NCBI RefSeq assembly: GCF_026151205.1
Contig: NC_087074.1
Location: 15,728,962 to 15,792,961, forward strand
Reading direction: 5' to 3'
DNA length: 64,000 nt
Source: Bolinopsis microptera
Taxonomy: Eukaryota > Ctenophora > Tentaculata > Lobata > Bolinopsidae
Positions 770 to 64,000 of this stretch are shown piece after piece; position 1 is the stretch's first letter; every line of letters starts with the position of its first letter. Made by a program: the position numbers and the translations under genes. The notes below the pieces were generated by a model. It did no database searches and was not told where the DNA came from. It was given only the letters and a program-made list of their open reading frames with translations.

Positions 770-3700
770 GTGGGTGTAACGCTATTGCTGATACGGGAAC
801 CAGTCTGATGACTGGACCTACCCACGAAGTAGCTCAGATCTACGCAGCAGCTGGAGCTACCCCAGTTAGCGGAGTTGCTATCATAGACTGTACCAAGGTT
901 CGTTAAATCACTAAGTTAAATCACTAAGTTCGTTAAATACACTTAATTATACACTAGAGAAAAAAGAAGAACAAATATTTACTCTAATTTCACGCTGTTT
1001 ATAATCATACAAATGTTAAGTTTTGTAAATGTTACCTCGGCTACCGGACAACTGAACCCAATTTGGACTTTTCCTAGACAGGGTAGCTTGGGAAAATAAT
1101 TATAAACCCAATCAGACTACCTAATTAACTTTGAAACGACAACTGAACCCAATCGTCACTATAAATCACTAACAGTAACAGTTTAACAGGTTTCCAAATA
1201 CCGTTCTAGTTTAGCTGCTGCCTGGTTTCTAGTGCTATAATTTCGGTCTGTTGAGGTTGGTGCTTCGGAGTGGTTGGCAGATCCGGACTTATCTGCTCGT
1301 GATCGTTGGACAATTCTGGCAAGGGATTCTAGTTTAGGTAGTACCACGTTGATTTCGGATGGGCATGTAGATAAGGCTTCGGTGAGGAGGTTTTGGGTTG
1401 CTGAGAGGTGTTGGTCGGCAGCTTTCCGCTTCAATTCTGCTCTGAACTCTGCTTTCTCAGCTACTAAGTTGTCAGGGTCGTGGGAATGAGGTTTGGCACC
1501 GCTGGCCAAGGACTGATCTCCATGGTCAAGGAATACATGAGCAGGACATTTCTTGGTTCTGTAATTCTGGCATCTCCAAGTAGAGGTAGTAGGGGTATCT
1601 CGATCCTTTCGTACTAATAGATGACAAGGTCTCAGGTGTCTTTCGATCGCGAGATCTGATCTAACAAGCTTACGTGTTCAGTGTTCACGAAGCGTGCCGA
1701 AAAGGATACGATCCACTGCTCCTCAAGCATCGAGACCCAGGGCTCAAGATCTGAACCATGGCAGGCCCTCCCAAAGCATCAGGAGTCACGAGATCGGAGT
1801 CAAGTAACCTGAGCCAAGTATCCAGCGTGCTAATGGTGCGTTCCATCAGCTTTGGAAGACATGAAACAGTGGAACTATAAGAACGCCCATCAAGATCCGT
1901 ATCTACAAGGCTAACTTTCAAAGCTAGACGGACACGTTGCCAGAATGCCAGAGACACAGGTTCCCAATTTTTTACTGGATTAGAAACCAAACTATGGGAA
2001 GAGACTGAGAGGACGACTCCGTAAAGGCTGGATGGCTTGTGTTCTCGAGGATGCGGCTGACAGGTGTCGATAACATCAGCAGAGACGCAGTAAAACAGTT
2101 AGCTCTAAAACTAGTGGAACACCGTAGAAGAGATGTGTGTGATGCAGGCCACTCCAACGACTAGGAGGAGACCTCTTCAATCTTCATGTAGCATGTATGT
2201 ATTAATATTTTACCGGGGTAAGCACAGGGCTCCAATGCTCTAAATTACAGTGGTCATGATCTATCCTATAGTGATAATGAGCACAGTCCCCTGCGAAGAA
2301 GGAGAACCTGAAAATCCGATCGTTGGGTTCAGTTGTCGTATTTCCTTGGGTTCAGTTGTCGTATTTTCAATTTGGGTGCAGTTGTGATATGACCTGGGTT
2401 CAGTTGTCGTTTTGGGATTTAAACTGATTGGTCACCCAATTAAGCTGATTGGGTGCCTGTTAACTGCGTGGGAACTAGGTTCAATTGGGTTCAGTTGTCT
2501 GCCACCCGTTACCTCACTATTATTTTCAGATAAAGAGCCTACCAATGTTTACTATTATGATCGGAGGGACTAAGTTCACACTCACTGCAGACCAATATGT
2601 TCTCAAGGTTAGTAGAACTGGTCCCGGGCGGGACCCTAGTTCGGATGGCTGATGGGGCCGCTAAACTCAGAAAATCGTGCGGACATTTCCCCACCTCGTA
2701 TAGAAACGAGAAAAAAATTACGAATAGAAGAGAGAGTGGAACAGCAAGATAAAACCACAGGACATTTAAAGGTATATTAAGTAAACGTGGTGATGGCACG
2801 TAATATGAACAAACGTGATACAACCTCGGAACCAACCCCCTCACTTTACGTCACAGTTAACAGTATAGTACTTAAGCTAATTACTAAGGTAGTGATTGTT
2901 TAACTCCTAGGCTGGTTATCAATATCATATAACTGCGACTTTACTAATGGTCTGTTGCCTGAACAGCGGTTACATCGTACAAGTTCGTAGTCGTACTGAT
3001 AACCTAATATAGACAATATATAAATGGTCTGACAATATAATGGTATGTCACCTGAACAGCGAATATACCTCGTACGATCAGGTGTTCTTAAGTTTTGTTA
3101 TTTGACCATTCTGCAAGTAAGGTTAATGCCTCTTATTACCCCTATGGTTCGCTTTACTCACGTAAACAGTATACTCCTGGAGATGCGGAATGGCGTGACT
3201 GATAATGGTAACGCCTCTTTATAGTTATTTTTGGCCTGATAACTGATCAAATAAAGGGACTCGTTAAGGACCCTCGGTAGTCAAGTTATAAAGACTTATT
3301 AGTCTCTGTAACTCAGTCAAGTTATAAAGACTTATTACCACCTGACGACTTGGCTTCTGTTCCACCTGCAACTCCCAGTTTAGGTATGGTAAGTGGTTAA
3401 GGAAATCGTACGTAAAACGTCTATCCAGGTGTGTTATTGAAATTTGGAAATTTATTTTATTTGGAAGTTATTGAAATTTGGAAATTTCACCCTCCCATAA
3501 GATATCGTAGAATTTTATCATTTATTTTAAAAATGCAGTTTTGTTTCCCTTCTGCGGAAGAATAAGTTAGCTGCAAGAGTTCTCTTGAGCATCAGCTCAA
3601 ATTGCCACCTTATCGCTTTATAGACTAGATAGATTAATTAATAGACGGCATCGAATCAGCGGCAGCTTTGTGATAGTATTGCGGACTGGTTACTGAAATC

Positions 3701-5458: not shown

Positions 5459-5690
5459 TATATAAATTATATATATATATATATTGTTAGTCAGCCACAA
5501 CTGTCAGTAAAACAACGCCTTGACTTCAAATGTCGGTAAAATGTACCTTTACAGTCATCCTCAAATTATTTGTTATATAGTAGTGTTGAAAGTATTAATA
5601 AGTATATATATATTAGAGCCATACTGATGAGTCCTAATAGGACGAAACACTGTGTCTATGGATATATATATATAATTTATATATATATTT
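5459..5690 (+). repeat. Retrozyme-like segment carrying a hammerhead ribozyme
   Basis: About 230 bp bounded on both sides by TA-dinucleotide tracts that are roughly inverted copies of each other (5459-5486 and 5660-5690). It is absent from the sister block at 12508. The size and the ribozyme content fit an animal retrozyme monomer, but I see only one copy and no tandem array, so the class is inferred. Confidence 0.45.
5603..5680 (+). ncRNA. Type I hammerhead self-cleaving ribozyme
   Basis: All core elements are present in order. Stem I 5' strand CCATA lies at 5619-5623, then CTGATGA at 5624-5630, then stem II (TCC with AGGA, TAAT loop). The conserved GAA follows at 5644-5646, then stem III ACA/TGT with a CTG loop (5647-5655 region) and the cleavage triplet GTC ending at 5655. 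Stem I closes with TATGG at 5656-5660, and the TA tracts can extend it. Predicted self-cleavage is after C5655. Such type I hammerheads are known from animal retrozymes, schistosome satellite repeats and some Penelope-like elements. The very short stem III is typical of those. Confidence 0.85.
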
Positions 5691-44206: not shown

Positions 44207-44672
44207 AATGTTTTAAATTAGAACAATGGGGACAATGAGGACAATGAGGACAATCATCTCATTGGTTTTACTGAAATAGTTTGAGTCTCTTACTTATACT
44301 TTTAACTGTATCCAGATACACTGATACAGGTTGAAGCATTTAATTTTAAGTGAACACTTCACTTTCCCAACACATTTTAGGCTGCTTTGTTTTGCGCCAT
44401 GTTTTTATTCAGCCACTTCGAATAACAGTCTAGTTACTTCTACACCACTAATTCATTGTCTACTGTTATACACAAAGTACATAAAATTATTATCATTAAC
44501 GACATAATATTACTGAACATCTCTGAAAAGTCTCCAGGTCCAACCATAACAACCACACAGATAGCACATACCTGAAACTTAGAAACTGCAGCACGAGCTT
44601 GTTTCGTGTTTTCAGACAATTTTTGTTTATGTTACCTTGCACCTATTTAAAAGTTTAGACGTTTCTTGGAAC
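44207..44672. other. Intergenic gap between TRIM-NHL and TRPM
   Basis: Only 466 bp separate the TRIM-NHL stop from the TRPM start codon, on the same strand. GGACAATGA is repeated three times at 44224-44250. The region must hold the 3' end signals of one gene and the 5' region of the next; no clear poly-A signal or TATA was assigned. Confidence 0.4.
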
Positions 44673-47600
44673 ATGCCCGGATTCAAGGTGGCATTTGATG
44701 TTCTTGACGAACTACCGGAGGAGACTCCCCTTTATGAGCTGCAGGTGTGCCCTAGGGACCTGGTAGGGAGACACGAGAACAGAAACGATATTAACTCCTC
44801 TACTCCTCTAATAGAGGACGAGGAAGAGGACGAGGAGGAAGGGGAGGAGGAGGTGATTTCTCCTTTAGCAGAAAATGAAAATGTACATAATAGAACCGTC
44901 TCTTATAATGAGTTCCAGACTATACCAGCCCAGGTTTCCTCAGGAAATGACAGTTCTTCTTCCAGTACTAGTTCCATCCTAGAGGATGGAAGTAGATTCG
45001 GTCTCAGACAATTGAGGAAAAAGTTATCAGAGAGATCCCATTTAGTGTACTCAAGTAATTCCTCGACTACATATCTTGAGGCTGAGGAGGAGCTGGATTC
45101 CTTTAGATCACTCCCTCAATTTGAATTAGAATCAGCCGGTCGACCTTCCAATCATAAATCAAGAAGAGACTCTGTATTTTCTATGTTGTCAAAAGGGAAA
45201 GCAGGCTTAGAAAGCATCACGGGGCTAAGATCAAGGTCCTCATCACTGGCGCAATCTCGCCATAAAGTAAAAACTAAAAGTGGATACTACATTACCGACA
45301 ACTTCAACTGCAGGGTCTGCCACCATTTCGTCCCCAGACCTGCAGATTCCTCTTCTCTCCCGTCTGAGCGTTGTAAGTGTGGTCTCCCCGCCGAACTGCA
45401 CGTCCTGTCCGGAGCGTTCAATTCGGCTGATGTGTCCAACACTTCCGCTTCGTGGAGCTACACCCGGCACACTACAAAGATCCCTACCAACTCTTTTGGG
45501 TACATTGACTTCATCGACAGCTTCCTGGATACTAATACAATGCCATACTTCCTAAGATTAGACATTGACACTTCACCCGCTAAAATAACTGAACTTATGT
45601 TGGAAAAGTGGGGGATCCACAGACCCCGTCTCATCATGTCTGTATTCGGGGAGAGCTACAAGGATATCGACGAGAACTTCCTAAAAAGGAACTCTGAGTT
45701 GTTCGCGAAGCTGACAGCAGGACTCCTGAACGCCGCTAAGACGACGGAGGCCTGGTTCTTCACTGCTGGGTATGACTGCGGGGTTAGCAAACTTATCGGC
45801 CGGGCTGTTGGGAACAGCAGGAGCTTTATAAATGTCATACCTGCTATAGGGATAGGGTTCTGGGGCGCTGTTGCTAGCAGAGACAGACTGGTCGGGGAGG
45901 GAGGACTTTTCCCTGCAGAGTACTGTAAAACTAGCACGTATACTACAGTTGGGGTGGAGAGACCTTTAGACCCGAACCACACTCATTTTCTGCTGTTCGA
46001 TCGAGGAACTGTTGGAAGTTTCATGACAAATGAAATACACAATAAACGTATTGAAGTGGAAGCGAATATCTCAGAATTTACTAAAGCTCAGTTTATCTCA
46101 ATAATGATTGCAGGTGATCTTAGCTCTTTAAGGGAATTAAGGAAGAGAGTTGAGGAAGGTTATGCTGTGGTCATTATGAAGGGCACAGGTCGAATGGCTG
46201 ACATTCTTTGTCAGTTTCACGATGCTGCTAATGCTGAATCATATAGAAAAGCATCATGGCACGGAATGAAACTTTCTGCCAGTGCCATGGAGAAAACTCT
46301 TTCTCTTCTGAGAAAGGAATTTCCTCGCCGTAAGGACCAGAGTTTTGCGGTGCAGCTTGAAGATATCAAGGCTCTCTTGCGATATTGGAAAGATAGCATC
46401 ACCATATGTGATTGTGATGTTGACTGCGTGGACAGAATTATACTCCAGGGACTGATTAAGAGTATCAAATCCAGCGGTGCTTTGAATGACAATGTAGCTG
46501 AGCAGCTAAAATTAGCTATAATATGGAACAGGGTGGATCTTGTAGAGGAGTCATTCAAGGCGAACACCATCCCTCGTAATCTTGTGGAGGATTTGTTGTT
46601 TTTAGCTCTGAAACTGGATCGGGTAAGCTTCATCAGGAAGTTGTTAGATCACTGTGATGCTGCGTTTGATTTCAGTCAGTTTTTAACTGAGGACAGGTTT
46701 TCGGAACTGCTAAACGATGTCCCCGAAAGTAATTTTCTCCGAAAGCTACTGACCCAGCGAAGAAGAGTGATGAAACGATACGATAAAATATTCCCGAAAG
46801 CACCCGAAGTAGGCAACCCAAAGTTTAAATTCAGATTCGAGCACTTCGCTCAAGTGATATACAAGATAAGTTCGGGGGTTTACCAATGTTGCAAATGCAA
46901 ACGGAGAATCTCCGGTGATTTCGACGACCCTGAGGATATCCTAGTTTTGTTCTGTGTCTTGGAACAGCGCCAGAAGATGGCCATGTTGTTTTGGGAACGT
47001 AGCAGCACTCCGACCATGTTGGCACTGGTGGCTTGTCATATCTACAAATGGATGGCGGAAAAAGAGTCTTCTTACATAGAAATTACCCCCGAAATGAAGC
47101 CTGTTATCCTTCAATATGCCAGGTAAGGTTTGTCTTCTTACACCACTATCAGCTATTAACCTAGTAACCAGCTAGTAACCTAGAAACCAGTTAGTAAACT
47201 AGTAACCTAGTAACCAGCTAGTAACCTAGTGACCAGCTAGTAACCTAGTAACCAGCTAGTAACCAGCTAGTAACCTAGTAACCCGCTACTATTGTTTACA
47301 GTGAGTTTGAGACACTAGCCTGGAAGATAGTAGACGAAGTGTCTCACCACTATCCTACCAAGTGGATATCTTCTCTAATTACCCACAATTACTACAACTG
47401 GGGCGGCAAGAATTTGTTGCAGGTTTGAAAGTTAACTTGTACATATAGCGATAATTTATCGTTTTTTAATTCATTTTTTGTTTAATAATTAATAACCTTT
47501 CGCCAGCCCACACTTTACATAGTTAGATTATTCAGTCAGTTGTGGGAGTAAAGTATATAAAAGGTCGTCTATGAAAGTAAATACAATTCCCGACATGTCG

Positions 47601-50600
47601 CTTTATTTGGTTCAGTCTTGGTTTCATCTTAGGACTTGCCATTCAAACTATCTGTCATAATCTGACTCCCACAGAGATAAGATTACGTCACCAAATAAAA
47701 TATGTTTAATTCAGAGAGATTATTAGGTTCAAGATGAATCATTAATTTGTGAGAAGAAACTGAAAAAATTAAGCGCAGTATTGACCTTTTTGAATTTAAA
47801 CCAAATAAAAACACGTTAGCTCATATTTCATTTAATATCTACTACTACAAATATTAAAACTTTATACAATCTATGATATCAATAACTGAAATTAACTCTC
47901 AATTGGGACAGGATCTTTAATAAGTAAGTAATTATCCAAATTCTGTTATACTTCTTTGTAAGGACGAAAAAGGTGCTCTTTAGTCCATCACAAGGTGTCG
48001 AGTCTCCGTGCTTATTTAGTTGAGGCTCCAGCCTAGACGACAGACCGATGGATTTTAGGAAGAGGCAATTAATGTAGGAGTTTTGGTTAATGACCTTTAA
48101 TTTCAATAATAGTTCAATTCGCAAGTTCATTCATAATTTAGTTGTAATGACCGGATTCGGTCTTATTTTAGACTTGTTTTGTCTAAGATCAAGCTATCTC
48201 TTAGACGAGCAAAAAAGCAACCCAAGAAAACCTGGTATAATTGGGGAGCACTTAAATCGGATGAAGACCTACAGAAGAGATATGCAGTAGAAGTTAAGAA
48301 TCGGTACTCTGCTTTATGCGAGCAAACCGATGAAAGTGAGGTTACGGAACTGTATGGGCATTTTGTTGATGCGATTGCTGATACCAACAAAGCCATACTG
48401 CCTAAGAGAGAAAAGAAGAGACGTGACGATTTCGCGGGTGATCAGCGAGTTCAAAGCGTGCGTACAGCCTTGCAGCAAGCAGAGACTGTCTATCACCGGG
48501 ATCCTAGTGAAGACAGTCGACTGTCTGTTAAGCTACTAAAAACTGAACTGGATCAGGTGTACCAGGACATCTTTGAAGAAGATCTAGTTGCCAAGGTTAG
48601 AAGGGTCGAAATGGCTGCAGACAGATGCAAAAACAAAGAAAGTTGGAATGTCATAAATGAGATAACTGGCAGGAAGGCCAAGGGGGCAACTCAAATAAGG
48701 GGCAACGGAGCCGAAGAAAGGAAGAAAAATTGGCTTGGGCATTTCACGAATCTGTTAGGGAGTATACCGGATGTGGAAAACGAGCATCCTAGGATCGAGA
48801 CTCAATTTGAAGGACTCAACATCAGTACAGAACCTTTTACTGTGGATGAGCTTAAAGCTGCTAAACACAGGATAAAAGAAGGTAAAGCACCAGGTGATGA
48901 CGGCATACCACCTGAAGTCCTCAAAAGATGCGACCTGGATGAAATCTTGCTGTCCTTCTGCAACAAAGCCCTGACAGATGGTATTGCACCAGATCAGTGG
49001 AGGATAAGTAACATCATCCCGGTTCCCAAAAAGGGAGACTTGACCAACCCTGGAAACTGGAGGGGGATATCTTTGACTTCTCTCGTAGCTAAGACTCTTA
49101 ATAGAATGGTGCTTAATAGGATCCAGCCGGCTATAGAGGGGGTACTTAGGGACACTCAGAATGGTTTTCGGGAAGGACGGTCCACTACTAGTCACATCTT
49201 GGCACTCAGAAGGATTCTAGAGGGGGCTAGACAGAGAAATTTACCGGTAGCTATGGTGTTTGTTGATTTTAAGAAGGCCTTTGATTCACTTCACCGGGGA
49301 ATTTTGATGCAAATACTAAAGGCCTATGGAATACCGAACAGTATTGTAGATATCATTAATCTTCTCTATGTCAACACGAAGGGCAAAGTTATAACACCAG
49401 ATGGGGATACCGAGCTATTTGATATCCTGGCAGGAGTTCTTCAAGGGGATACATTAGCACCATACTTGTTCATTATAGCCCTTGACTATTGCATGAGACA
49501 AGCCTTAAGCAAGCATCCTGAAATAGGATTTACCATTAAGCCTTATCGGAGTAGGAGAGTCAAGGCGGAGAAGATAACAGACACTGGTTTTGCAGATGAC
49601 ATTGCTCTGATAGCAGATACTGTAAAGGAGGCAGAGATGCTGATGCTAGAGGTAGAAAGAGTTGCTGCTACAGTGGGACTTAAAATGAATGAAGGGAAAA
49701 CCAAATTCATTACTCAGAACATCGAGAACCCTGATACCATCAAGTCCCTGGGTAACAACACAATAGAGCACGTGGAAGACTTTACCTATCTTGGTTCTAG
49801 AATCAGAGACAGTGAGAGTGATATCAGGGTTAGGAAAGGAAGAGCATGGGGAGCATGCCACACTCTCAAAAAACTTTGGAAATCTAACCTTAGAAAGTCT
49901 ATTAAGACCAGAGTGTTCACAGCACTAGTCGAGTCGGTGCTTCTATACGGTTCTGAGACTTGGACTATGACGAAAAGGCTGGAGAAGATGGTTGATGGTT
50001 GCTATACACGAATGTTAAAGGACCAGTTAACTGAAAAATTTGTAGTCTCCAATTTGGCTAAGATTTAAATCAGCTGTGACAAACTGGTAAAGAATCGTAT
50101 CGCCGAAAGAACCAATTCTCTAGCGTACGTGTAACGCGTGTTATTGCAATAATAAGCTGTGGCCTCGTGACGTCATAAAGTCCCTCAGTGCGCGCTTGCA
50201 TAGCGTAATACATTGCAAATGTTTATCATCGTCAATAAAACACGTGTAACTCACTCAAATTTTAGAACTATGACTATTACCCTAGTTCTCCAAAATCCTT
50301 ATAGTTTTGGCTATCATCCTAACTAAAGGAATAGCTGATTGGATGTACAGTGCTCACTGCTCACGTCATGATTTTAAACAGTGATATAGGTTCTTGAACA
50401 GTGGCGGGTGAATGTACGGTTAGAAAGTTTCTGCTATTACAACTTATGTCATATGTGATAATTTTGGATTGTTTTCATTGCTTAATTACACAAGCAGGGA
50501 GACTGTACCGATTATTTTTCCCCAGTCCATGAAACTCTAACGAATTTAGAAAGGATCTAGATAAGTAGGATCAGTTTGTTCAATTCCGAGAGCAATTATA

Positions 50601-53600
50601 TTTATATCACAGCGAAATTTCTAACTTAAATCCGCATGTGTCAGCCAGTACAGGAGACAAGAAGTCTGGCTACTTTACGGCCGTTCCTCTGGGACCATTA
50701 GTAGAAGTAGCTTCCATCAGAACAGTGCCGTGGGAACAGAATTCCCGCCATAATACCCGGTCTACCAAATGATTGGAGTGTACGGTGTGCGGTGTGTTTT
50801 GAATTAGACTTACGGCTTACCTTATGGTTGTTATCCTAATTGCATTATCATCGGTACATAACATAAATAAACTACTGGTAAGTTTAAATACCAAGTGCAA
50901 ACGTGTTCAGTCAATCGACCCATTGAACAACTATAAAATTTCCAGGACCCTATTATTCTCTGGCCATATATTACGGCACGATCGATTGTTAGATGGCTAA
51001 ACGACCAACGTTAATCTATACAATTCTAAAACTATGAGCTAGCACTTTAATCTAAAAATACACTTTTTATATTACTCCTGATTTTTACATTTCACGTAAA
51101 ACATTGTCGCCACAGGTTGATCATGGACACTAACAGCTTAATTTGAGATAAAGTTGTGTAGTCCAGTCATTTATGGACATTTATGGAAATGAACCTGCAA
51201 ATGTTCAAATACTCACGAAACTTTGCACAGACCTTCCTGAAGGTATGAATAAACGATTTTCGTTCGGAGACATTTTTTTGACCGTGGAGAAAACCCAGGA
51301 GGGCCACGCCCATATTGACCCAATAACGTAACCGACCCCTTGCTTCTGAAGGTCGTAGAGACTTCAAAATAGGCTTAAACGAAGCGGCATATGCATGTTT
51401 ATATAGGAGTTACTGAGCAACACATGGCCTAAAATCCTTACTTTTCGAGAAATTTGCCAAAAACCATTTTGGGCGTGGTGCTGAGCCCATTTTCGATAGG
51501 ATCGTGATAGAGTCTTTACACAGGGTGCAAAAGAACCGCAATTAGCATATTAATATATGACTTGCGAACAAACATATGCCTTAAAGTGCTTACTTTTTCA
51601 GTTATTGGCGAAAAACTGATTTTCGGTTCCAGAAATCATGCAAAACTATGGGTATCTGGTAAATGGGGCTATGAAGGCCCTTAAGGTTTTTGAATGTGTG
51701 CAAATTGTGCAGAATGGCCCTGTTTATATACAACTTATGAAGCAACATGTACCCTAAATTACTTACTTTTCGAGTTATTCGGGGAAAAACATTGTATTAT
51801 GTCCATTTTCTACCTGTAAAATACAGTCTCACGAGCTCTTCTGCGCGCGCAAGGGACTTTATGACGTCATCGCCAAAATAATACAAACGCTATTTACACG
51901 CGTTAGAGAGCAGTTAGAGATTTAGGAATTTCGACTCGTTGCTTAGTTTGCTATTTGTCACAATCAGTCAAAATATGAGGATAACTTTTTTTTCAGTTAA
52001 CTGGTCCTTTAAGAATGGCCCTTAACATCAATCAATATCGAGACCATGTCAGCAACCACAGTCTGTACGGTGATCTTCCTAAAGTCAGCTCCAAGATAAC
52101 CCAACGAAGGCTCAGACTTGCAGGTCATGCTCACCGACATCCGGAGCTGACACTGAACAAACTGATCCTCTGGAAGCCGAGTCATGGGCATACTAACAGG
52201 GGGCGACCTTACCTAACACTACTAGATAACCTAAAAGCAGATACTGGGCTGAAATCAGTAGATGAGATAGCTAGACTGATGGAGGACAGAAAGCTGTGGA
52301 GAACTGTTGTCAATGGATCTCGGGAATACTACCCGCCTTAAGTCAAGTAAGTCAAGTCAAGTAGAGCAAAACGCGCAGTTTTGCTAGTACTTTAGTTAAG
52401 TTTTCGAAATTGTCCCACATTCAAACGACGATTTGGCGCCCCCCTAAGACGGCGCCCCCCTGCACAGCAGGGTCAGCAGGGCCTTTCGTTACGCCACTGG
52501 CACGTAGTGGTTATCAATTAGGCGGAGGGAGTTTTAAAGCTAGGGATTCTAATAAATGGTGTTAGGCCGGATTCATAGGTGGGAAGTTCCACTTCCACTT
52601 CGATGGTCAGGGAGAAAATAGGGACTTTGGTATGGAAACGTGCAGGGTATAGGCCATCTTCACACTTTTAATATAATCGTCAGTTCTTTCTAACTACAAT
52701 ACCTTCTACAAGTTAAATAATTAATATGCATATATTCTCTACAGTTCTGTCAATATTCTCCACAGTATTCATTATAACCGCTTTGTCTGACTGTTTTGAT
52801 GTTAAGTTTACTCTTCTAGAGACACATAGTCCTTCTCCCCTAGCTATAGATCTGTCTCAATGATCCCATCTCCACCAACCCCTGCTTGATAGGGTTTAAC
52901 CCTTCTTTTACCTCTTCTATCTCTTCTTGAGGGCTGTAATACTCTCCCTGCTCTCACGTTTCTATCCCCTTCAGCAGTGGTCTCCAATTCTTTGTCTCCT
53001 CCGATGGTACTTTGGTTGGGAATGTTGGGTGCATAACCTACCTCTTTTAGTTCCCCTGTTCGATTAGTAGCACTTGTTGTCGCCTTGGATGCTCTCATTT
53101 CAATACTTTCCACCTCCACTGTTTCTGTTGGTGCTGGATTGAACCATCCCCGAATTCTTTGGTAAACTATAGAGCTTGAAATTCTGGTCCAGATTACCCG
53201 TGAAGGTCTTCTAATGGCCTCTGTCAATTATACATCATCGTAGAGAAGCGGGTTGATCACAGAATTTATCGGAAGAATGACCATAGAGAACAGGGCATAC
53301 CAGGGTGTAGCGTCAAGAACACCCACTGAGTGGAGGACACATATCACGATGAAGGGTATCCAGCACAAAAAGTCGGTGCCTATTATGATGGCTATTTTCT
53401 GATTCATGCGCCTGTTTCGTTTCTGCATTTGCCGATTATTTGATCCTACCACACTTTTCGATGACCTTCGAGATGATATTCCGATGAGAAGGTATGAAAG
53501 AGAAATGAAGAGGAAGCAGATAAAGTTTAGAGCCAAGATACCCCATACGAAAGATCTTTGGGGGTCATCATTTTGGACGAAGTATTTGAAGAGGCAAACT

Positions 53601-56600
53601 CCGTCATTTCCGTAGAAATCAACTTTAGCCACCCTCTCCGTGTGGTCTTCATAGTCAAAATCCCGTGAAAACATATTTCTTGCCATTTTGATCAACAAAT
53701 CCCACTTTAAGTTCGCTTCTTTGGTCCTCCCATAGTATGCTTTAATGACATCAAAAACCTTTTCTTTATCTGGTGTCCCAATGAAGATCTTGAGGTCATC
53801 TAAGAACTTCACTCCGTTAACAAAGAAATTTGCTAACTTCTTGATGACTGGGATAACTGCAATTGCTGCCGAGGCTAAAACGGTAATCGTACTGTAATGC
53901 GACACGTACTCTAGTGCGACACGTACTCTAGTGCGACACGTACTCTAGTGCGAAGTCCGACAAAAACACCCTCTGTCGCACTACAGTACGTGTCGCACTA
54001 CGATCCAGGTAGCGTACTCTAGTGCGACAAAATATCCTGACTTATTTTCAAGTTCAGGTCACATCCTATCCTTCTTATGGACCATTAAGTGATTCGTCGG
54101 GTCGGTTCACGTCACTTATTTCGAAGTGATCTTGAGAATACGATTCGTCGGTTCACATCACGTGTTTCGAAGTGATCCACTGATCACAACCCTTCGGGTC
54201 AGTTCAAGCCACGTATGCAGTGTGTGATCCACCGGGTAACTCGTAAGCAGCATATGATCCTCATTCCTATCACGCATCGTATGAAGGTATATCTCCGATT
54301 GGGATAACAAGTTCATATGCTTGGGCCATATATAAGGTCACGATGATTCTACCAAAGCATCGAACAACATCAACATGTCTTCATTCCTAGAAGCGCGACG
54401 ACATGACCTACTGGCGATGCACTGAGAAGATCTGCTCCGGACTTCTCAGTTTGATGAACGACACTACTGTGACCAGTACGAAGACCCATTCCCACCCTCC
54501 TACTCCTGCAGCAAACTCTGTCTACACAGCAAAGCAGAACATGAAACGGAAAGCCTCCGATACTGACCTCCCTACGAAACACCTAATTGCTGACGCTGTT
54601 GGACCCCTCTCCTTCGAAGCCATGTCAAAACTCAACTGTCAGCAGGAATCCCTCGCTAAGATGGCACGCACAGCTCCTAACTCCTGACTACATCCGAACG
54701 AACGGTGGCGAAACCTTCCTTCTTTGGGATTCTACCTTTTCAGCAGAGAGAAGAAGATCTTTCCTGTTCGGCAAAATATGGATTGTTTAGCTGAGGCCCC
54801 TCATCTTGTCATCGATGGTACCTACAGCACCTCGACTAACTTGTTCACGCAGCTGGTGACTATCCACTGACTCTATCCTGACGGCTGGAGAAGGAAGATG
54901 CAGCAACATGACCTAGTGAATGTGTAAAGTGCTTTGTCACACTTTAGTTCGTGTCGCACTACAGTCCAGGTAGCGCACTGTAGTGCGACAGTGTCGGCCT
55001 TGAACATTCTCTGTCGCACTAGGGTACGTGTCGCACTACGATCCAGGTAACGTACTCAACTGCGACATGGTCGATCTTGGAGGTTTCGCACTAGGGTACA
55101 TGTCGCACTAGAGTACGTGTCGCACTACAGTACGTGAACCGGCTAAAACCAAGGAAAACATCGCTGCTGCAATCTGGAGGGATTTCTTTATATTAACCTC
55201 ACCTGGAACTCTCATAGAATTCCATATGCCATGTAGTCTGATGACACTGAGGCCTGTCATAGCGAAAAGGGAGACCTGAGATCCGATGGTGCTGAGTGGA
55301 GTTGGGTCCGATGGTGCTGAAAATGCCGACGGCAGAGCATTTGAGGCTTGTAATCCATGCGATCTGGTTGAGACAGTAACTTCTTTTAAAGGCTATTCCG
55401 TCGTAAATTGCTATCATTACAAGGTACCACCCTACCAAGAAGTCACCTAAAGCGATCAAAATTATCAAACATCTATTAGTCATCGCAACTGATGTCTTGC
55501 AACGTTTTAGCGTTACTAGACTCTTAGCAATGATGACAATATTTGAGAAAACTGCGAGGGAACCTATTAGCCAGGAGAGCCCTTTCAGTAAAGTGCTTTC
55601 CAGTAACTGCTTCGAACACTCTTCATTACACTCGTCTGTAAGATCTAGACAATCGAAATTTCCATCACATTTCTTAGACTTAGGTATGTAATTCCCAGAA
55701 GAGTCACACTTAAAATGGTTAGAACAGTGATCTTCGTCAGAACTGTCTCCACAGTCATCTACAAGATTGCACACTTTATCATAACCCACGCACCTTTTCT
55801 TATTTTCGCATACAAAGTATCGGTTGGTGTAAATATTACCGAATGACTTCGTGAAGAACGCAAGATACTTGCCATTTGCAATGGTTCCTATTCGCTCAGG
55901 AAATTGCTCAGGGCAAACCTCGTATCTTGGAATGTTTCTTAGCGGACAAGAGGCACTGATGCATCTACCAGTACAACTTGTGTACAGATAGTTCTCTCCG
56001 TAAAGGTGGTCACAAGATTGCTTGCTTCTAGGAAGAAACACAGAGGTTTTTGTGTCCACACCAAAGTAATCGTGGTCCGGATAGATGTGATGTTCTTCTA
56101 CGCAGGCATCCTTCAATAGTTCCAAACTTTTCAGACCTTTGTGACAATAAGATAGTCGTTTGGTGAGGCCACTGTTTGTTGTGTGTGCTGATGATACGAT
56201 ATCGTGAGCACTTCGTGAAATTGAACAGATTTTGTTTTCATTTCCACAAGTTTCTATCCCATCACAGAGATCACTCAGCTTCACATAGCCTGGGTTGCCC
56301 CAGGGACAGATAAGGGCATTTTCACATACAACCTTGTTGCTAGGCACATATCGTAGTGTTTTGCCGATTCCACATCTTGGCCAGTTTGCAGTTTCGTCTG
56401 CACCATCCTCACAGTCTTTAACCCCATCTCCTAACCAGGATATCGGTATGGGCAGATCTCGGTCTTTCCCAACCCGTCTCTTACAAGTAGCCTCTGTTCT
56501 AGAGAGACACGTGGAGTGACTTTCATCAGACCCATCCTCACATTCCTGCTTATCATTACACATGAGATGTTTGTGTATTTTACAGGTTTTAGTATAGAAG

Positions 56601-59600
56601 CATTTGCTTTCTATTTGATCGTCACAAGCCTTTATTCTTTCATCTAGACAGATCAAATATTTAGAAAGGGTGGCTTTATATCCGTTCACGTCGCAAGTAA
56701 CTCCAACTCTGGACGGGTCAGAGCAGTTTGTTTGACTGTTTATGTGATCATAATAATCACAATATCTTATGAGAAGCCAAACAGCAATTTCTTTATGTAT
56801 TATGGAACACCTGGTGAGATTGTGTACAGGCACTATCTCTCCAGTACGTTCGTGTTTGCAAGTGTGTTGTGTATTATCCGTAACTTTACATCCAATCATA
56901 TTCTCCTTATTTAGGCAGTAACTAGACTTGCGAGGATTACATATGTAATCAAAAGGAACGTAACTCAGCAAGCCAGTACGAGTTGTAATGCAATACAGTC
57001 CGTACGTGTAACCATTACAGACAGCTTCGTCTTCACAGGTTGGAGTATCACACTCATCGTCACAGATATCCTTAGTAAATACTGTGTCTCCACTCAGCAT
57101 TGTGGTCTTGTCTTCATCTGGATCACATCCTACTTCATCTAATTCAGTGTTTCCGCAGTCTAAGTTACCGTTACATATCAAACCCACCTCTTTAAGTGTA
57201 TAAGATGGAACTATAATATCGTTTCCATGCCCAAAATCAAGATGACATAAGTAGATTCCACAGAGCAGCTCATTGTTGGTTATCTTATCTGTTAATCCCT
57301 TATCACAAGCCTGATAGTATAATGGGTCTTGTGAGCAAACTTGTCCAAAGTAATAACGAATATATTCATGTTGAAAGTAAAACTCCTCTGTATTCCAACA
57401 CTTGAAATTGATGGTCTTCATGATCGGGTAGTTGTCGTAGCCGCACACGTACTTCAGAAAACCGTTTATTTCTTTAATGGGGCATTGAGCAACTGAAATA
57501 ATTTTGTAGTTTCACTGATAACCTATAAAATTGTATATTCTGGGTTGTGACTGGTCAGTGCTGGAAGCTGATTGGGTCATTGCTACGGCTCATTTCCTAT
57601 ATATTATTTGTGTATTGTTACAAAGACAATTTGGGGAAATTTTGGGGGCAATTTTGAACACCGGTACGGATTACCTCATAATCATTTTTATGTATAATCC
57701 TGTTTAATTGTAATTATATAATCAATTGTTTTCCATCCTTACCTGAATCAGTTGTAGAACTAATGCTAGTAGTAAAAAGAACTGCTTGGATTATAAGGAG
57801 AACATAGCTCCAAAGAAATATCATCAGCAGTGGGTCCTGTGTCCGTTACAGACTAATCCTGTGGAATTTATTCTATAAATCATATTGGGCATTGGGTATT
57901 GCAGTTTCTGAATGATAAAAATGATAAAACTGTAACCAAATGAACGAAATATTAATTATTTTAGCAGAAGAGAATCAGGCGATTTCTCAAAAATGTAAGA
58001 CGATCAATTTGCAATAAGGGGACTAGCACATGTGTCCTACAAGCGATGCTACTGGGACCCCAATCACATAGATAAAAGTTGTCTAATCAATTACCTTTAT
58101 GGAACGTAGCACCGTGAAAATGATCCAATTCAAATAACACCGCACAATGCATATACTGGTAAATTAGTCAGTTAAGCACATTTATAACATGAGACATTGG
58201 GAACTAAGCACAGACCTCCCCAATGGATAGGATATCAACAAAAAAGGATTTCAAAATGTTAATATAGGCATAATTCAGGGGGACACCTTGTTTTTTTTCG
58301 AAAGTGTATCCCAGTTTCTGAGGGTCGTAGAGATTTTAAAATGGGCTCAGGCAAATACTATTTGGAAAAGGAACCGACCAGTCTAGGGTTTCGGCTGCCG
58401 GACCGGAAACGGTTTCCCGGATTTTGCCGGGCCGGAACCGGCCACCGCGGGTGTTAAGAATAAGAAATTTAAGACTGCCGGAAATTGCTGGAAAATTTGA
58501 ATTAATCCTTATTTGAGTTTTGCTGTTCGGGCAGCAGTAAATGGTTGATATGCTGTGCGATCAAAGATCATTAATTAGTGGTTGAGCTAGTAACGAGTTT
58601 TGGAGCACAAATGTAGAGATTGTTCTAGAAATAAAACCAAAGACCCAGCTCTCAAAAGTTCGTGGCGTCGGACGTCGGTGTAACACAGGCTAGCATGTCT
58701 CGTGTAACCACAGGATTCGGTTTTAGATCAGAATCTCAAAACAACGATAAAGGAGCGGTCTGCGGTGACGTTAGTGTTCCAGGTTGGAATCACCCAAAAT
58801 TCACACTGGGCAATATTCAAGGACGGTTCAAAAATAGGGAAATTTTCAGGAGCAGGATACCTTAGTTCCCAAAAATTTGTGTGCCATTATATTGAGCACA
58901 ATTTATTTGAGCCCGAAAAATTTGGGCAGAAAATTTGAACTCATTTGGGCGACCAAAAATTTGGGCACAAATTCTTCGAAAAATGAACGATTTTCCACTA
59001 AAAATCGTTCATTTTTAGTGAAATCTGTCATTTCATTTGGTTAAGCCATGAATGACAGATTAGAAAAATAAAATTTTAAATATTATTTCACTTGGATATG
59101 AAGAAAAAGCCATCTTTATATAGATCTCAGGGCCACAGGCTAAATGCCAAAAGTTTGGTTAGCAAAAAATTTAGCAGACGGAAAAGATTTATGCAATTTA
59201 TTTGGTCTGCAAAAAATTTGGGCGAGAGGCCCGCTCAAATTTTTTGTCGCCCAAATTTTTGGGAATTAAGGTACCTGGATACTGTGTGATTCGAGATATA
59301 ATTATATAAGCGAGGACCAGAGACAAGTTTCCACACCCAGGCAACAGTGTATCAACTGTTTGACGATTAAACAGATTCAGAAGTAGCACCCACCAGGAAA
59401 CACTGCACAGTGCACACTCCTACGAATTGCACGTAGCAGGCCACGACCGCCCCTGGAAGTCCCTGTCTCTCCGTCTTTAACCCGACGGGGTTGCACCAGG
59501 GGCGGTGGTAACAGAGCTTCAAGACTCCAGGAGTACGTTGTCGATATCTATGATTAATATGAATATGGTATATACTTTGGGAGTCTCTCTCTCTCCAGAA

Positions 59601-62600
59601 GCAGGAGTTGGGGACATAGGGTCGCGTTGTGAAAGCCACCGTAAGGAAGGCACACAGTCGACGCTTACCAACCAAAAGAAGAATTCATTGTTGACTTAGC
59701 AAGGATTTATTAGACGAAAAATATGCATTTTATTTTAAAGAAATTTCCAGTCCGGCGAATTTCTTGGAAACCGAACCGGGACTGGATATTAAAGCCGGAA
59801 CCAGATTTACCGAAAGGCCTAAACATTACTTTTAGATAACTTTACTTTTAGATAAAATCTACGAAAAATATTTCTGCTTTGCTATGATGCCAAACCTAAT
59901 TTCCTTTTGGTTGCAGCATGATAAAAAATTCTGGATACCGACAACAAATGGATTTTGTAATAAAGGAAAATGAGTTCTTATAACTCTGTCCTTGCTATTG
60001 AATATAATATAATCAGGCACAAATAGCCACTGTTGAGTATAAAATAACAGCTGCCTTCATCATAAAATATAGTAAAATCATTCTCAGTTTGATGATTACT
60101 CCATTCCACTCAGAAGAATCACTGTCTGACTTTATTTTATAATGCCATTTACAGGTGTTATCTAAGTCTACAATAAATACAAAATCCTTAAAATTTTCGG
60201 GGGGGGGGGTCTTCATACCCATAGCACATAATGTAGCTTGTTTATGCTTTGGTGCCGTTTATTTGAAGCATTGCTTACTAAAGCACTAAGCATAATTCAT
60301 ACCTGTAAAGCAGCGAAACGACTGCCCCCGCTATACCTTCGCTAAGCCGACAAAGATTTCTTTCAACTGGATTGAGATGTATATAATCACTTCAGTTACG
60401 GACAACAAATGGATTTTGTAATTAAGACAGCTGTTAAAAGATAATAGCTGCCCTCATCGTAAAATATATTAAAATCAGGACAAATAGCCCTCTCAGTTTG
60501 ATAACTACTTTATTCCTTACGAATAGTAGAGATAAATAACTACAAGTAAATCTCGCAATCTCATGTCGTCCCGGTGGATTGGCACTTTCTTTTTAATTTC
60601 CTAACTCTGAAAGAAGTGGACATCTGTCATTATCATAATTTTTTAAATCTGGTCAAAACAACGGTCAAAACACACATTAAAATTTATCCCAGATTGCAGA
60701 CTACACCGACTATTATTTGTTTATATTCCAGATTTCAAACTACACCGACTGTTATTTGTTTATATCCCAGATTTCAGACTACACCGACTGTTATCTGTTT
60801 ATATCCCAGATTGCAGACTACACCGACTGTTATCTGTTTATATCCCAGATTGCAGACTACACCGACTGTTATCTGTTTATATCCTAGATTTCAGACTACA
60901 CCGACTGTTATCTGTTTATACCCCAGATTGCAGACTACACCGACTGTTATCTGTTTATATCCTGCAGATTTCAGACTACACCGACTGTTATCTGTTTATA
61001 TCCCAGATTGCAGACTACACCGACTGTTATCTGTTCATTTCCCACGACTCTATACAAGACTATCTTACCGGGGAGTGGATGGGAATGTTGGAACCGGATA
61101 TGACTTATTGGAACATTGTCTTCACTATTCCCTTCCCTTTCCTGGCTTCCTTTCGCAAGATCTCTGACAGCGAGATACAAAACAAAATGATATCTAAAGA
61201 AATCGATGAAATGGTATGTTATTTTGATAAATCCCAATCTTAATATTTTTTTTCTACATACCTTATAAATTAATAACAATGCTCTCTCATGTCAGTTTAT
61301 CAAAAATATCTACGTGCTTTAAAACATTGTACTGACAGGAGCGGAAGAAGATGGCGTTTGTGTCAAAGAAGACCGTGGAAGGAACTACAGGAAAAGACCC
61401 AGTACAGCAAGGACAACGACGTCTAAACCTCTTGCAGAGGATGTATCATTTCTATAATGCACCTGTGGTTAAATTCTTCATATACATTGTGAGTTATATC
61501 TGATTATTTGTTAGTTTTTATTCTGACCCGTTAAGTTAACGGTAATAGTTCAGTTTTTAATTTCACTGCTTAGATTTATCCGTCTTCTTTAATCTTTTAA
61601 TCTCTATCTCTTGCTTTAATCGTTCGCAATAACAAGGCTTATAATTAAGTGACGTTGTGGTAGTATTGTGATCTTATTAAGCGTTCATGGGTTATCGTTT
61701 TCACAAATGAACTTCCTAATCTTCCTTATCATATAGTTCGCAGACAGTTTTATAATTTATGGATTTGATATTTCTTTTTCAGTTAATGTACTTTGCTTTC
61801 CTTGTAAGCTTCTCATACGCTCTGCTGATAAAACAACCAAAAACCCGAGCAAGCGGGACTATGGACAATGCTGAGTTCGTGGTTTACATATGGACAGTCT
61901 CTATCATACCAGTTGAGATAAGACAGGTATTGAATACAGCTTTAGAAGAGAACAAAATATTAACGATTTTCACACATTTGCTAAAGCTTAGATGTTGGAG
62001 CCCCCTCCTATCGTAAGATAAGAGATGGTAGAATGTCATGCCTGAGAATCAAAATATAGTAGATACATTACATACCGTTTAGAATAGTGACTCGAACCTC
62101 GCGAGTTTGCAAGTATCCACCAAAAAGTGCTGAATATTTCAGATTTACCACTCCTGTCCCTCCACTACCATGGGCAAGATAAGAAACTACCTATCTAACC
62201 AATACAACAAGTTTGACGTGTACAGCATGATGTTCATCTTTATCTCCTTCTGCTGCAGAGTCCTCCCCAGACTAGGACTCCCGGAGAATGCTGACAATCT
62301 CCCTCCTGCTCGTCTGGAGGAGGCTGTCTTCAGAGTCTTCTTTGCTTTCGGTTTTGCGGGGATGTGTTTACGTTTGTTACAGGCCATGCAGATCAACTCT
62401 CGGTTGGGCCCTAAAGTGCTGATGGTCGCCTCCATGATCATGGATTTGGTGTTCTTTCTCGGCCTGCTGGGGATGGCTCTCATCTGCTACGGGGTACCTA
62501 CTAAGAGTTTAATTACTCCGACTAAGTCGAATGTAACTACTGATATGATATATGACTTGTTTTGGAGACCGTATATAAACATGTTTGGAGAACTAGATCT

Positions 62601-63687
62601 GGACTCCTTAACTGAGGATATTAATGAGGGGTACTGTCTGCTGGCTAACCAGTATAACCATACTGTTAACTGTACTGATGCCAAGACCGCGTATGATTGT
62701 AGCGCTGACAAGTATTGCTTTTATAACAGGTGTGTATAGCAACGTTATTGCAAGGTTTTACATGAACCTTCCAACCAATTTAAACAAAATCTTGCGTAGT
62801 TTGTACAATTGAACATTACCTTTCAATGCCAGAATCTCTTTCATATTATTTGTTCTTATTTCTGCTACTAAGCTCTCGTCCTAAACCCTGTCCCTAAATC
62901 TCAGCCCCTCACCAGGTTGCTGATATATTTAATGATGTCGGCGTATCTGATGGTAGTAGCTGTGATGATGCTGAACTTGTTAGTGGCTGTCTTCACTTTC
63001 ACCTACGATCAGATAAACGCTAACTCTGCCATACTGTGGAGATGGCAGCGGTATGAGCTCGTTACAGAGTTCAAAATGAGATCTAGTCTCCCCATACCAT
63101 TCAATACCATTGTACTCTGTGTATTCTTTCTCAGATTCCTTTACAGAAAGAGTTGTTCACGTGGAGGTTGGTATATTTCTTGCTTTTAAAACTAGGTCTT
63201 GGTTTAGGCAGCGGCGTCGCTCCTTCATCAGTTATTAATAGCAATAAATCTGTTAAACGCTAAACTCCTTCTATAACCTTCTATAACCATTGAAAACTCG
63301 GTAATCCTTGCGGTATTAGGTTTGCTTAACACAAAACGTGTGTAACAACTAGCAAGTGCTTATCTTTATGTCCTCATCTTTGGAAATTAACGTATGTTAT
63401 TAGTTTTCCCTTGGCAGCAGTTTCTGCTTATCAGAAGTTACTTCATTGATAGCCTATAAAAACTACACTCGTTTTCAGAGTTCGTGAGGAAACGTGACGC
63501 GTACAAACGCCGCCATGATCACAAGCAAGACCGGATCTCCCTGCTCGAGAGTGAGTGTCGCAGGAACCTGCTCAACAAACTGAACGAAGTAACAGAGATG
63601 AAGCAGATCCAACACCAGGTTCATGTCTGTGCGACTAGTGTGGATTCCTTGACCAGTGCCGTTCAGGATTTCAACCAAAACTTGCAG
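44673..63687 (+). CDS. TRPM-family cation channel, C-terminus beyond window
   Basis: Exons 44673-47122, 47302-47422, 61007-61213, 61339-61488, 61783-61926, 62143-62729, 62916-63166 and 63479-63687; 4119 nt, all phases match. The large first exon has an acidic N-terminus, then the TRPM homology region with YYITDNFNCRVC, SWSYTRHTTKIPTNSFGYIDF-type sequence, WFFTAGYDCGVSKLIGRAV and VIPAIGIGFWGAVASRD. Exon 3 has the FISH turn. Exons 5-7 hold transmembrane segments, with a pore region around YINMFGELD and, after the last segment, the TRP helix as WRWQRYELVTEF. The last visible exon is a coiled coil. Products are plasma-membrane Ca2+/Na+ channels. Whether a Nudix or kinase domain follows is unknown. 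I chose ATG 44673; the frame is open a little upstream without another ATG. Confidence 0.92.
47155..47290 (+). repeat. AACCTAGTAACCAGCTAGT minisatellite in TRPM intron 1
   Basis: Seven or so 9-19 bp units of TAACCTAGTAACCAGCTAG fill the short intron between the first two TRPM exons, ending just before the acceptor at 47301. Confidence 0.9.
47423..48100. other. TRPM intron 2, 5' part; no feature seen
   Basis: AT-rich intron sequence before the LINE insertion. The minus-strand frame at 47879-48130 has no recognisable motif. Confidence 0.4.
48100..52375 (+). mobile_element. LINE (RTE-like) reverse transcriptase, 5'-truncated, split by TTAA element
   Basis: Open frame 48179-50014 continues exactly at 52013 after removal of the 50019-52008 insertion. 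The reverse transcriptase shows FVDFKKAFDSL (about 49256), GVLQGDTLAPYLF, TGFADDIALIAD (about 49587) and GSETWTMTKRLEKMVDGCYTR; then RLRLAGHAHRH and GRPYLTLLDNL lie in the distal part, which ends at 52341. Only the last residues of the endonuclease (HNLVVM near 48131) remain, with a frameshift to the main frame. A tail of AAGTCAAG units follows. The reading frame is otherwise open for 630 codons, so this is a young copy. The RTE label rests on the overall look of the protein and is less sure than 'LINE'. Confidence 0.85.
50019..52008. mobile_element. Non-autonomous TTAA-target transposon inside the LINE
   Basis: Starts AGGACCAGTTAACTGAAAAA and ends with its reverse complement, flanked by TTAA (50015-50018 and 52009-52012). 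Removing it and one TTAA rejoins the LINE frame as YTRML-R-MALNINQ. TTAA targets fit piggyBac or Kolobok. Subterminal inverted segments share GACGTCATAAAGTCCCT (50167, 51848). The interior has three degenerate CCTTACTTTTCGAG units (51430-51775) and no transposase. A related fragment occurs near 58300-58370. Confidence 0.9.
52380..52499 (-). mobile_element. Partial hAT-type MITE relative of 8732-9015
   Basis: Ends GGGCCTTTCGTTACGCCACTG, the inverted counterpart of the 8732 element's left end, with the same GGCGCCCCCC and AAACGACGATTTGG interior. The other end is missing or merged with the LINE tail. Confidence 0.7.
53882..55140 (+). mobile_element. FLYWCH MULE, copy D, inserted in the GPCR
   Basis: An exact 9-bp duplication GGCTAAAAC flanks it (53873-53881 and 55141-55149). 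The inverted ends share CGTACTGTA, then TGCGACACGTACTCTAGTGC. Further CGTACTCTAGTGCGACA-type units repeat about a dozen times in both subterminal regions (53895-54030, 54940-55130). Excision of the element and one target copy restores the receptor frame through SLVLA-SAAIAV. It encodes a FLYWCH remnant. Confidence 0.92.
54360..54690 (+). pseudogene. FLYWCH zinc-finger remnant in MULE copy D
   Basis: Reads MTYWRCTEKICSGLLSL, then TKTHSHPPTP, then a linker with KQNMKRKASDTD and KLNCQQESLAKMAR. YWRC and HSH are the FLYWCH ligands; the upstream half of the finger and the transposase core are not in frame. The 54587-54790 frame gives a few residues (ETFLLWDSTF) that may be a trace of the following region. 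Confidence 0.65.
57825..58385. other. TRPM intron 2; no gene seen
   Basis: Upstream of the antisense receptor start. A stretch at about 58305-58370 resembles the interior of the 50019-52008 TTAA element (GGTCGTAGAGA and following). The promoter of the receptor would be here, but nothing specific is visible. Confidence 0.4.
58386..59822. mobile_element. Possible hAT remnant with CCGGAACCGG ends
   Basis: Left TAGGGTTTCGGCTGCCGG and right CCGAAAGGCCTAAA with CCGGAACC are roughly inverted, of the kind seen at hAT termini. They resemble the GC-rich ends of the 15083-18207 element in style only. No transposase reading and no certain target duplication. Contains a TA-flanked MITE. Confidence 0.35.
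58860..59271. mobile_element. TA-flanked MITE with CCTTARTTCCCAAAAATTTG ends
   Basis: A 412-bp element whose ends are CCTTAGTTCCCAAAAATTTG and the reverse complement of CCTTAATTCCCAAAAATTTG, with TA on each side (58858-58859 and 59272-59273). The interior has an AAAATCGTTCATTTT inverted pair and many AAATTTGGGC units. It has no coding capacity. Confidence 0.85.
59823..60692. other. TRPM intron 2, 3' part; diverged internal duplication
   Basis: Segments 59935-60090 and 60395-60520 share GACAACAAATGGATTTTGTAA, CAGCTGCC and CTCAGTTTGAT, an old local duplication. A G-run occurs at 60199. No gene is seen. Confidence 0.5.
60693..61006 (+). repeat. 39-bp minisatellite duplicating a TRPM splice acceptor and exon start
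   Basis: Eight units of 39 bp (one of 41 bp, 60927-60967) precede the genuine exon start at 61007. Each unit has ATTGCAGACTACACCGACTG, then TTATCTG, then TTTATATCCCAG, so each ends in an acceptor-like CAG. In the TRPM frame a unit reads IADYTDCYLFISQ, the same as the true exon start IADYTDCYLFISH. Unit 5 ends in TAG (60885-60887) and unit 7 is 41 bp, so only acceptors after these give an open frame. Confidence 0.93.
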
Positions 63688-64000
63688 GTTTTTTTCTGAA
63701 CGTTTTTTAATTTTTAGTCTCTATGTTTCCATTCAACATCTCCCGATTAACTATAACCATTGAATACCACTATAGTGTATCATTTAACTCAATGTGTATG
63801 GCTTTTTGAGATCGGTAGGTCAGTACAGGAAAATGTCTGAACTAATTCGGACACCAGAAATTCTCTGAGACCATCTGATAGGACAAAGAGATTTTTTTGA
63901 CATTTAGATGAATAGCATCTTCATACATTAGAATACGTAAACAAAACAAGTTTTTATTTTGCAAATCAATAATTATAACAAGAATTCGATAACAATTAAC
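63688..64000. other. TRPM intron at window end; no feature seen
   Basis: AT-rich sequence after the GT donor at 63688. No further exon before the end of the window. Confidence 0.5.

Follow-up and report, generated by a model that had tools for sequence, protein, structure and literature searches.

Minisatellites that extend across an intron-exon boundary have been described in amphioxus under the term mirage (PMC3087553, PMC3902484). According to these two papers, splice signals occur in many of the repeat units, and regular splicing is reportedly not disturbed. The length of a mirage varies between haplotypes, with 6 and 3 units in BflGb6. Beyond BflGb6 and BflGb9, the amphioxus cases named there are Adh3 and also TnC and PGBD5. 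Mirages have been proposed as starting points for new introns, a model set out in PMC3087553. In the literature searched, which left most subscription papers outside, the word is used in the sense of a boundary minisatellite only in the amphioxus papers among the matches listed. A search for ctenophore minisatellites in introns or boundary repeats returned nothing relevant by title among the matches listed.

The locus described here belongs to a TRPM gene of the ctenophore Bolinopsis microptera. It lies in the window, that is, the whole stretch of 64,000 nucleotides that was analysed. Its features are:

44673..47122, plus strand: large N-terminal TRPM exon region with LSDAT_euk and TRPM2-like domains; candidate gene start
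47302..47422, plus strand: TRPM exon preceding the array; ends in ...NLLQ, phase 0
60690..61003, plus strand: eight intronic repeat units, seven of 39 bp and one of 41 bp; each is an acceptor xAG plus 12 codons (IADYTDCYLFIS-like)
60807..60845, plus strand: unit 4; its acceptor leads to exon start 60810
60885..60887, plus strand: TAG; stop codon in the frame read from the acceptors of units 1-5, doubling as the xAG of unit 6
60924..60964, plus strand: unit 7, 41 bp; two extra bases put its own and the upstream acceptors out of the exon frame
60965..61003, plus strand: unit 8; its acceptor leads to exon start 60968
61001..61044, plus strand: TCCCA words at 61001-61005 and 61040-61044, exactly 39 bp (one unit) apart at the exon copy
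61007..61213, plus strand: TRPM exon after the array; phase 0, 207 nt
61339..63165, plus strand: downstream TRPM exons 61339-61488, 61783-61926, 62143-62729 and 62916-63165

One uninterrupted frame joins the exon ending at 47122, the two exons that flank the array (47302-47422 and 61007-61213) and the downstream exons listed above, and the exon frame given in the first-pass annotation is thus correct. The last 535 aa of the joined protein match the structures of TRPM5, TRPM4 and TRPM2 (best E 2.2e-52). Pfam assigns LSDAT_euk, the TRPM SLOG domain (8.1e-38), and a TRPM2-like domain (5.3e-17) to the N-terminal exon, while Ion_trans reaches 23.3 bits on one later exon, just below the 25-bit cut-off. 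The 69-aa exon after the array, searched alone, matched no Pfam family. The assignment to TRPM is carried by the N-terminal domains together with the structure matches of the transmembrane core. We take exon 61007-61213 and its upstream junction to be the region from MHR4 to pre-S1, and the exons between 61339 and 63165 presumably code for the region from S1 to the TRP box. Four alignments to structures were listed, all to TRPM5, and in these there is neither a gap nor an insert across the 47422/61007 junction.

Several other elements were seen in the window. A second minisatellite (47150-47283, CTAGTAACC-type units) ends 18 bp before the TRPM exon at 47302 and is devoid of exon sequence. At 48137-50065 and 53228-57511, the 13.6-kb TRPM intron contains a reverse-transcriptase ORF on the plus strand and minus-strand frames that match LDL-receptor-A and 7TM domains and probably represent a nested receptor gene. 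A type I hammerhead ribozyme is found at 5617-5663 (35.9 bits, cut-off 34).

When TRF was applied to the 64-kb window, the array was reported at 60685-61044 with a period of 39, 9.2 copies, 93% matches and a score of 611. The xAG of successive units starts at 60690, 60729, 60768, 60807, 60846, 60885, 60924, 60965 and 61004, which gives spacings of 39, 39, 39, 39, 39, 39, 41 and 39. The last of these nine copies forms the genuine 5' end of the TRPM exon, which starts at 61007. Thus, the repeat unit crosses the intron-exon boundary of a real gene, as it consists of the acceptor AG and the first 36 nt of the exon. The first-pass annotation had proposed that a minisatellite has amplified a 3' splice site together with the start of a TRPM exon, with eight units of 13 codons ahead of the real exon. 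The TRF array, the unit register and the TRPM structure matches uphold this: eight units are intronic, the exon contributes a copy of its own, and the 39-bp spacing agrees with 13 codons. Also present are the TAG at 60885-60887, located at the end of unit 5 as counted in that annotation, and the unit 7 of 41 bp; both limit translation, as had been claimed.

The units are very similar to each other. In their first 39 bases, units 4, 5 and 7 are identical, as are units 3 and 8, and only 7 of 39 positions vary among the eight intronic units. Relative to units 4, 5 and 7, the true exon copy has two substitutions (TTC ATT instead of TTT ATA), both synonymous under the standard code. The AG at the acceptor position is retained throughout (9/9). 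All nine units read xAG|ATT at the junction, which does not contain the AGGT required by dual-specific sites and provides no donor. Recursive or dual-specific splicing was rejected on this basis. An exon that is coding from unit 1 onward was also rejected, because its frame would not survive the TAG and the 41-bp unit and the alignments examined contain no insert.

By its anatomy, the TRPM array is a mirage as far as the sequence can define one. It resembles the amphioxus cases in having tandem units that combine the end of an intron with the start of an exon, as in BflGb6 (BflGb9 repeats an exon end), and in that several copies carry splice signals. The lengths of the units differ. A unit has 39 bp in TRPM, as compared to 150-160 bp in BflGb6 and 10-72 bp in Adh3. 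The host is also different, a ctenophore and hence another phylum, and the TRPM array is known here from the sequence of one assembly. The original paper on the Adh3 mirage is said to be that by Canestro from 2002. The mirage as a kind is already known; what is new is the taxon, a ctenophore and thus a new phylum.

Human genes offer two partial parallels. In genes of segmental duplications, internal tandem repeats at exon-intron boundaries, with units of about 30 bp, also change gene structure and can lead to new introns or alternative transcripts, but half of the variable repeats are coding there and the genes are recent primate paralogues (PMC2812944). In UBC and VCX3A, a splice signal is likewise repeated in each tandem unit; these dual-specific sites, however, need AGGT, usable as donor and acceptor, whereas the TRPM unit has xAG|ATT (PMC10809524).

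To read the coding outcome of each acceptor, exon 2 was joined in silico to each of the 21 AGs that lead to an exon start between 60600 and 61100. Only two of the nine unit acceptors keep the frame, namely 61007, which adds no residue, and 60968, which adds 13 aa. The product from 60968 is open through all known exons, and no other decoy behaves in this way. The remaining seven unit acceptors result in a premature stop. The same holds for all inner AGs, which are located seven bases into the unit (8/8; unit 2 has lost its inner AG), and for two AGs upstream of the array. Within the exon, 61059 leads to a stop, while 61076 keeps the frame at the cost of 23 residues. It had been suggested that the array could give one or two extra repeats. 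One is indeed available (60968, +13 aa). The second is not, since use of 60927 includes the 41-bp unit, which shifts the frame into a stop. The first-pass annotation also held that a change in copy number would directly alter either splicing or protein length. At most, it may do so: judged from the reading frames, new units on the 5' side of the 41-bp unit could yield nothing but stop-containing mRNAs, and comparable arrays in amphioxus reportedly leave normal splicing intact.

The decoys are close copies of the true acceptor. On the downstream side, decoys 60810 and 60849 both agree with it without a difference for 29 nt; on the upstream side, identity extends over 42 nt for 60810 (71 nt in all) and over 35 nt for 60849. 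When the 23 bases of an acceptor window are compared, decoys 1 to 8 share 14, 20, 22, 23, 23, 22, 22 and 13 positions with the true site. Two decoys match in 23/23 positions, so that the usual acceptor window cannot separate them from the true site. In decoy 60968 of unit 8, both the AG and the pyrimidine-rich approach to it are preserved. In register, this decoy is the one least like the true acceptor (13/23), owing to the 2-bp insertion.

We consider it probable that the array is a neutral by-product of minisatellite birth at the TRPM boundary and not a device, and that the last acceptor is the one normally used. The array would have been born by tandem duplication of the last intron bases together with the first 36 bases of the next TRPM exon. 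The TCCCA found at both unit edges is the likely microhomology for slippage. Judging by the pattern of units, growth of the array and its partial homogenisation came afterwards. In the normal transcript, 47422 is most likely joined to 61007, by analogy with amphioxus, because mirages there reportedly leave regular splicing undisturbed. Preference for 61007 may come from exon definition, as this acceptor directly borders the exon, which has 207 nt and is closed by a 5' splice site a short way downstream, at 61213. Following the amphioxus example, the decoys would be spliced out along with the intron, or their use would give stop-containing mRNA that is lost; acceptor 60968 might contribute a small amount of a +13-aa isoform.

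Some points speak against a neutral by-product. The local acceptor signal fails to explain how the last copy beats two exact decoys. In model systems, duplicated acceptors often favour the one nearest to the 5' splice site. Such a preference in the TRPM array would therefore produce a premature stop, which counts against neutrality. Also, the homogenised units and a unit length that is a multiple of three could reflect selection.

Sequences related to the unit are rare elsewhere in the genome. With up to 3 mismatches, the 26-base core of the unit was found at at least 10 places in the 264.65-Mb assembly, 9 of them here (exon copy included) and 1 on C5. A reversed-pattern control had 0 places, and we do not attribute the array to chance. 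A DNA search likewise returned one other place, C5:21231576-21231712 on the minus strand. This piece has one partial and about two full units, followed by the first part of the TRPM exon, which reaches approximately IQDY, and the exon copy is broken by a 13-bp insertion. Within 9.9 kb around it, all DNA matches to window positions 44583-64000 (10/10) and both TRPM protein matches (2/2) fall on the piece itself. Since it includes the exon start, we regard it as a copied TRPM fragment. The piece represents the array and the exon start in decayed form, so the array predates that copying and would be old enough for a fragment to have been copied to another chromosome and to have decayed there. Between the C5 piece and the TRPM exon, 7 of 39 aligned bases differ (6 silent, one amino-acid change), which is too few to build on. 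The unit as a dispersed repeat was rejected, as the only other place found also carries the TRPM exon start.

At the protein level, the TRPM exon has matches at 8 places with E up to 1, including itself. In one paralogue (L007, C3:8262402), the matching phase-0 intron has about 0.2 kb and a single plain acceptor, and there is no array. In four others (L004, L005, L006 and L009), the coding frame is continuous across the junction point, with neither an intron nor an insert. Two near-identical TRPM paralogue pieces were seen at C117:7922-8086 and C5:12930822-12930986; the small contig C117 may be an alternative haplotype. A further TRPM-paralogue piece (L008, C13:9687907, minus strand) carries what may be an exon end with its donor and, about 139-147 bp away, a degenerate second copy of these; it is doubtful as a boundary array.

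These comparisons bear on the first alternative, according to which 60968 and 61007 are both used, so that channel forms differ by 13 cytosolic residues (a QISDYTDCYLFIS-type repeat) before S1. The unit is exactly 13 codons, and 60968 is in frame, open to the end of the known exons and has retained its AG and pyrimidine-rich approach. However, the match of 60968 to the true site in register is the poorest of all decoys, and there is no such insert in the four listed TRPM5 alignments or in the four paralogues from the same genome. We consider regular use of both acceptors unlikely.

To see if such arrays occur in other genes of Bolinopsis microptera, 70 loci were surveyed: the best-scoring 30 Ion_trans and 25 kinase loci, 8 glutamate-receptor loci and 7 TRPM-paralogue loci. 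TRF was run over 45 loci, and a direct-repeat scan covered all 70 on both strands. Coding sequence was recognised only by a protein match to another sampled locus, so that boundary arrays may be missed. Clear boundary arrays were found in three of the 55 ion-channel and kinase loci (L062, L057 and L074).

The first of these is a Nav-like gene (L062 560-972; C12, near 4,554,920) with three tandem copies of acceptor and exon start. The exon as cut matches sodium channel type 9 from its first residue. Over 22+30 and 19+30 nt, respectively, its two decoys are the same as the true site, and both give stops. The near-identical paralogue L095, which was picked for this near-identity and stays outside the 3/55 count, has two acceptor copies, while 188 of 192 nt of the exons are identical. 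Thus, copy number changes while the exon stays. All three decoys of the pair (two in L062, one in L095) give stops. The difference in copy number between these near-identical genes resembles that between the BflGb6 haplotypes with 6 and 3 units. The less similar relatives L096 and L097 have an intron at this point with one acceptor; L098 and L099 have no such Nav-like exon motif and were left out of the comparison.

The other two arrays are of the donor type. In a Kv gene (L057 847-934; C12, near 11,489,950), the end of the T1 exon and the likely donor are duplicated over 41 bp without any difference. In a tyrosine-kinase gene (L074 2809-3548; C2, near 5,483,900), the last bases of an exon and the donor recur with a unit length of about 26 bp. 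No fewer than 23 copies match, counting the true one, and GTA is kept in 22 of these 23. This array ends near 3548 of the 3606-base stretch.

Other candidates were set aside. Nav-like paralogues have a second array of 11-bp units (TGTTTCACAAG) that abuts the acceptor of a later exon (L062 1048-1344; L060, reverse, up to 1343), with an extent of about 0.3 kb in one paralogue and apparently to the end of the stretch in the other. It runs up to the acceptor without exon sequence and was rejected as a mirage. Also rejected were L059 (a 27-bp in-frame coding repeat and a second, 35-bp array), L090/L091 (a 59-bp repeat at the stop codon), L056 (a coding repeat), L049 and L069 (arrays beside exon ends, not in them) and L053, L044 and L064 (arrays for which a coding boundary was not demonstrated). 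Arrays of L009, L035, L045, L047/L048, L070, L082 and L094 and the 27-bp arrays of L060/L062 were not counted on the basis of the repeat table alone.

Minisatellites are common in this genome. Arrays with a period of at least 20 make up 3.7% of the window and, among the surveyed loci, 3.7% of the sequence of the 30 ion-channel loci and 2.8% of that of the 25 kinase loci. If minisatellites are placed without regard to exons, arrays are expected at a few percent of junctions. The coverage of a few percent thus fits an origin of the TRPM array as a by-product.

The Nav-like pair is also relevant to a second alternative. Decoys might be used noticeably, resulting in stop-containing mRNA, so that copy number sets TRPM output by unproductive splicing. 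Such a rheostat could draw on the stops from 7/9 unit acceptors and 8/8 inner AGs and on the decoy that shares 71 nt exactly with the true site. The Nav-like decoys give stops as well, with a copy number of 3 versus 2. Against this, the amphioxus mirages are reported as silent, and the paralogue L007 has no array. We consider such a function very unlikely for the TRPM array.

Tandem arrays are prone to mis-assembly, and a single assembly is at hand. A collapsed or expanded repeat as the origin of the array is nevertheless hardly credible, given that point changes and a 2-bp insertion distinguish the units in a fixed order and that a related C5 array carries its own changes, although the copy number in the assembly could still be off.

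The preferred reading remains that the array arose neutrally, as a by-product of minisatellite birth, and that the last acceptor is the one in normal use. A more far-reaching idea is that boundary minisatellites are frequent and repeatedly born in the neuronal and signalling genes of this ctenophore, as acceptor and donor types (the latter with at least 23 donor copies), and that decoys are used to such an extent that array length is a heritable setting between productive and unproductive splicing for TRPM and other channels. We consider this improbable. Boundary arrays in four kinds of genes (TRPM, Nav-like, Kv and tyrosine kinase) suggest that they originate wherever a genome is rich in minisatellites. 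Since a decoy may agree with the true site in 71 nt without a single difference, each boundary array can serve as a natural experiment on the factors other than local sequence that decide between splice sites, be it exon definition, distance or position.
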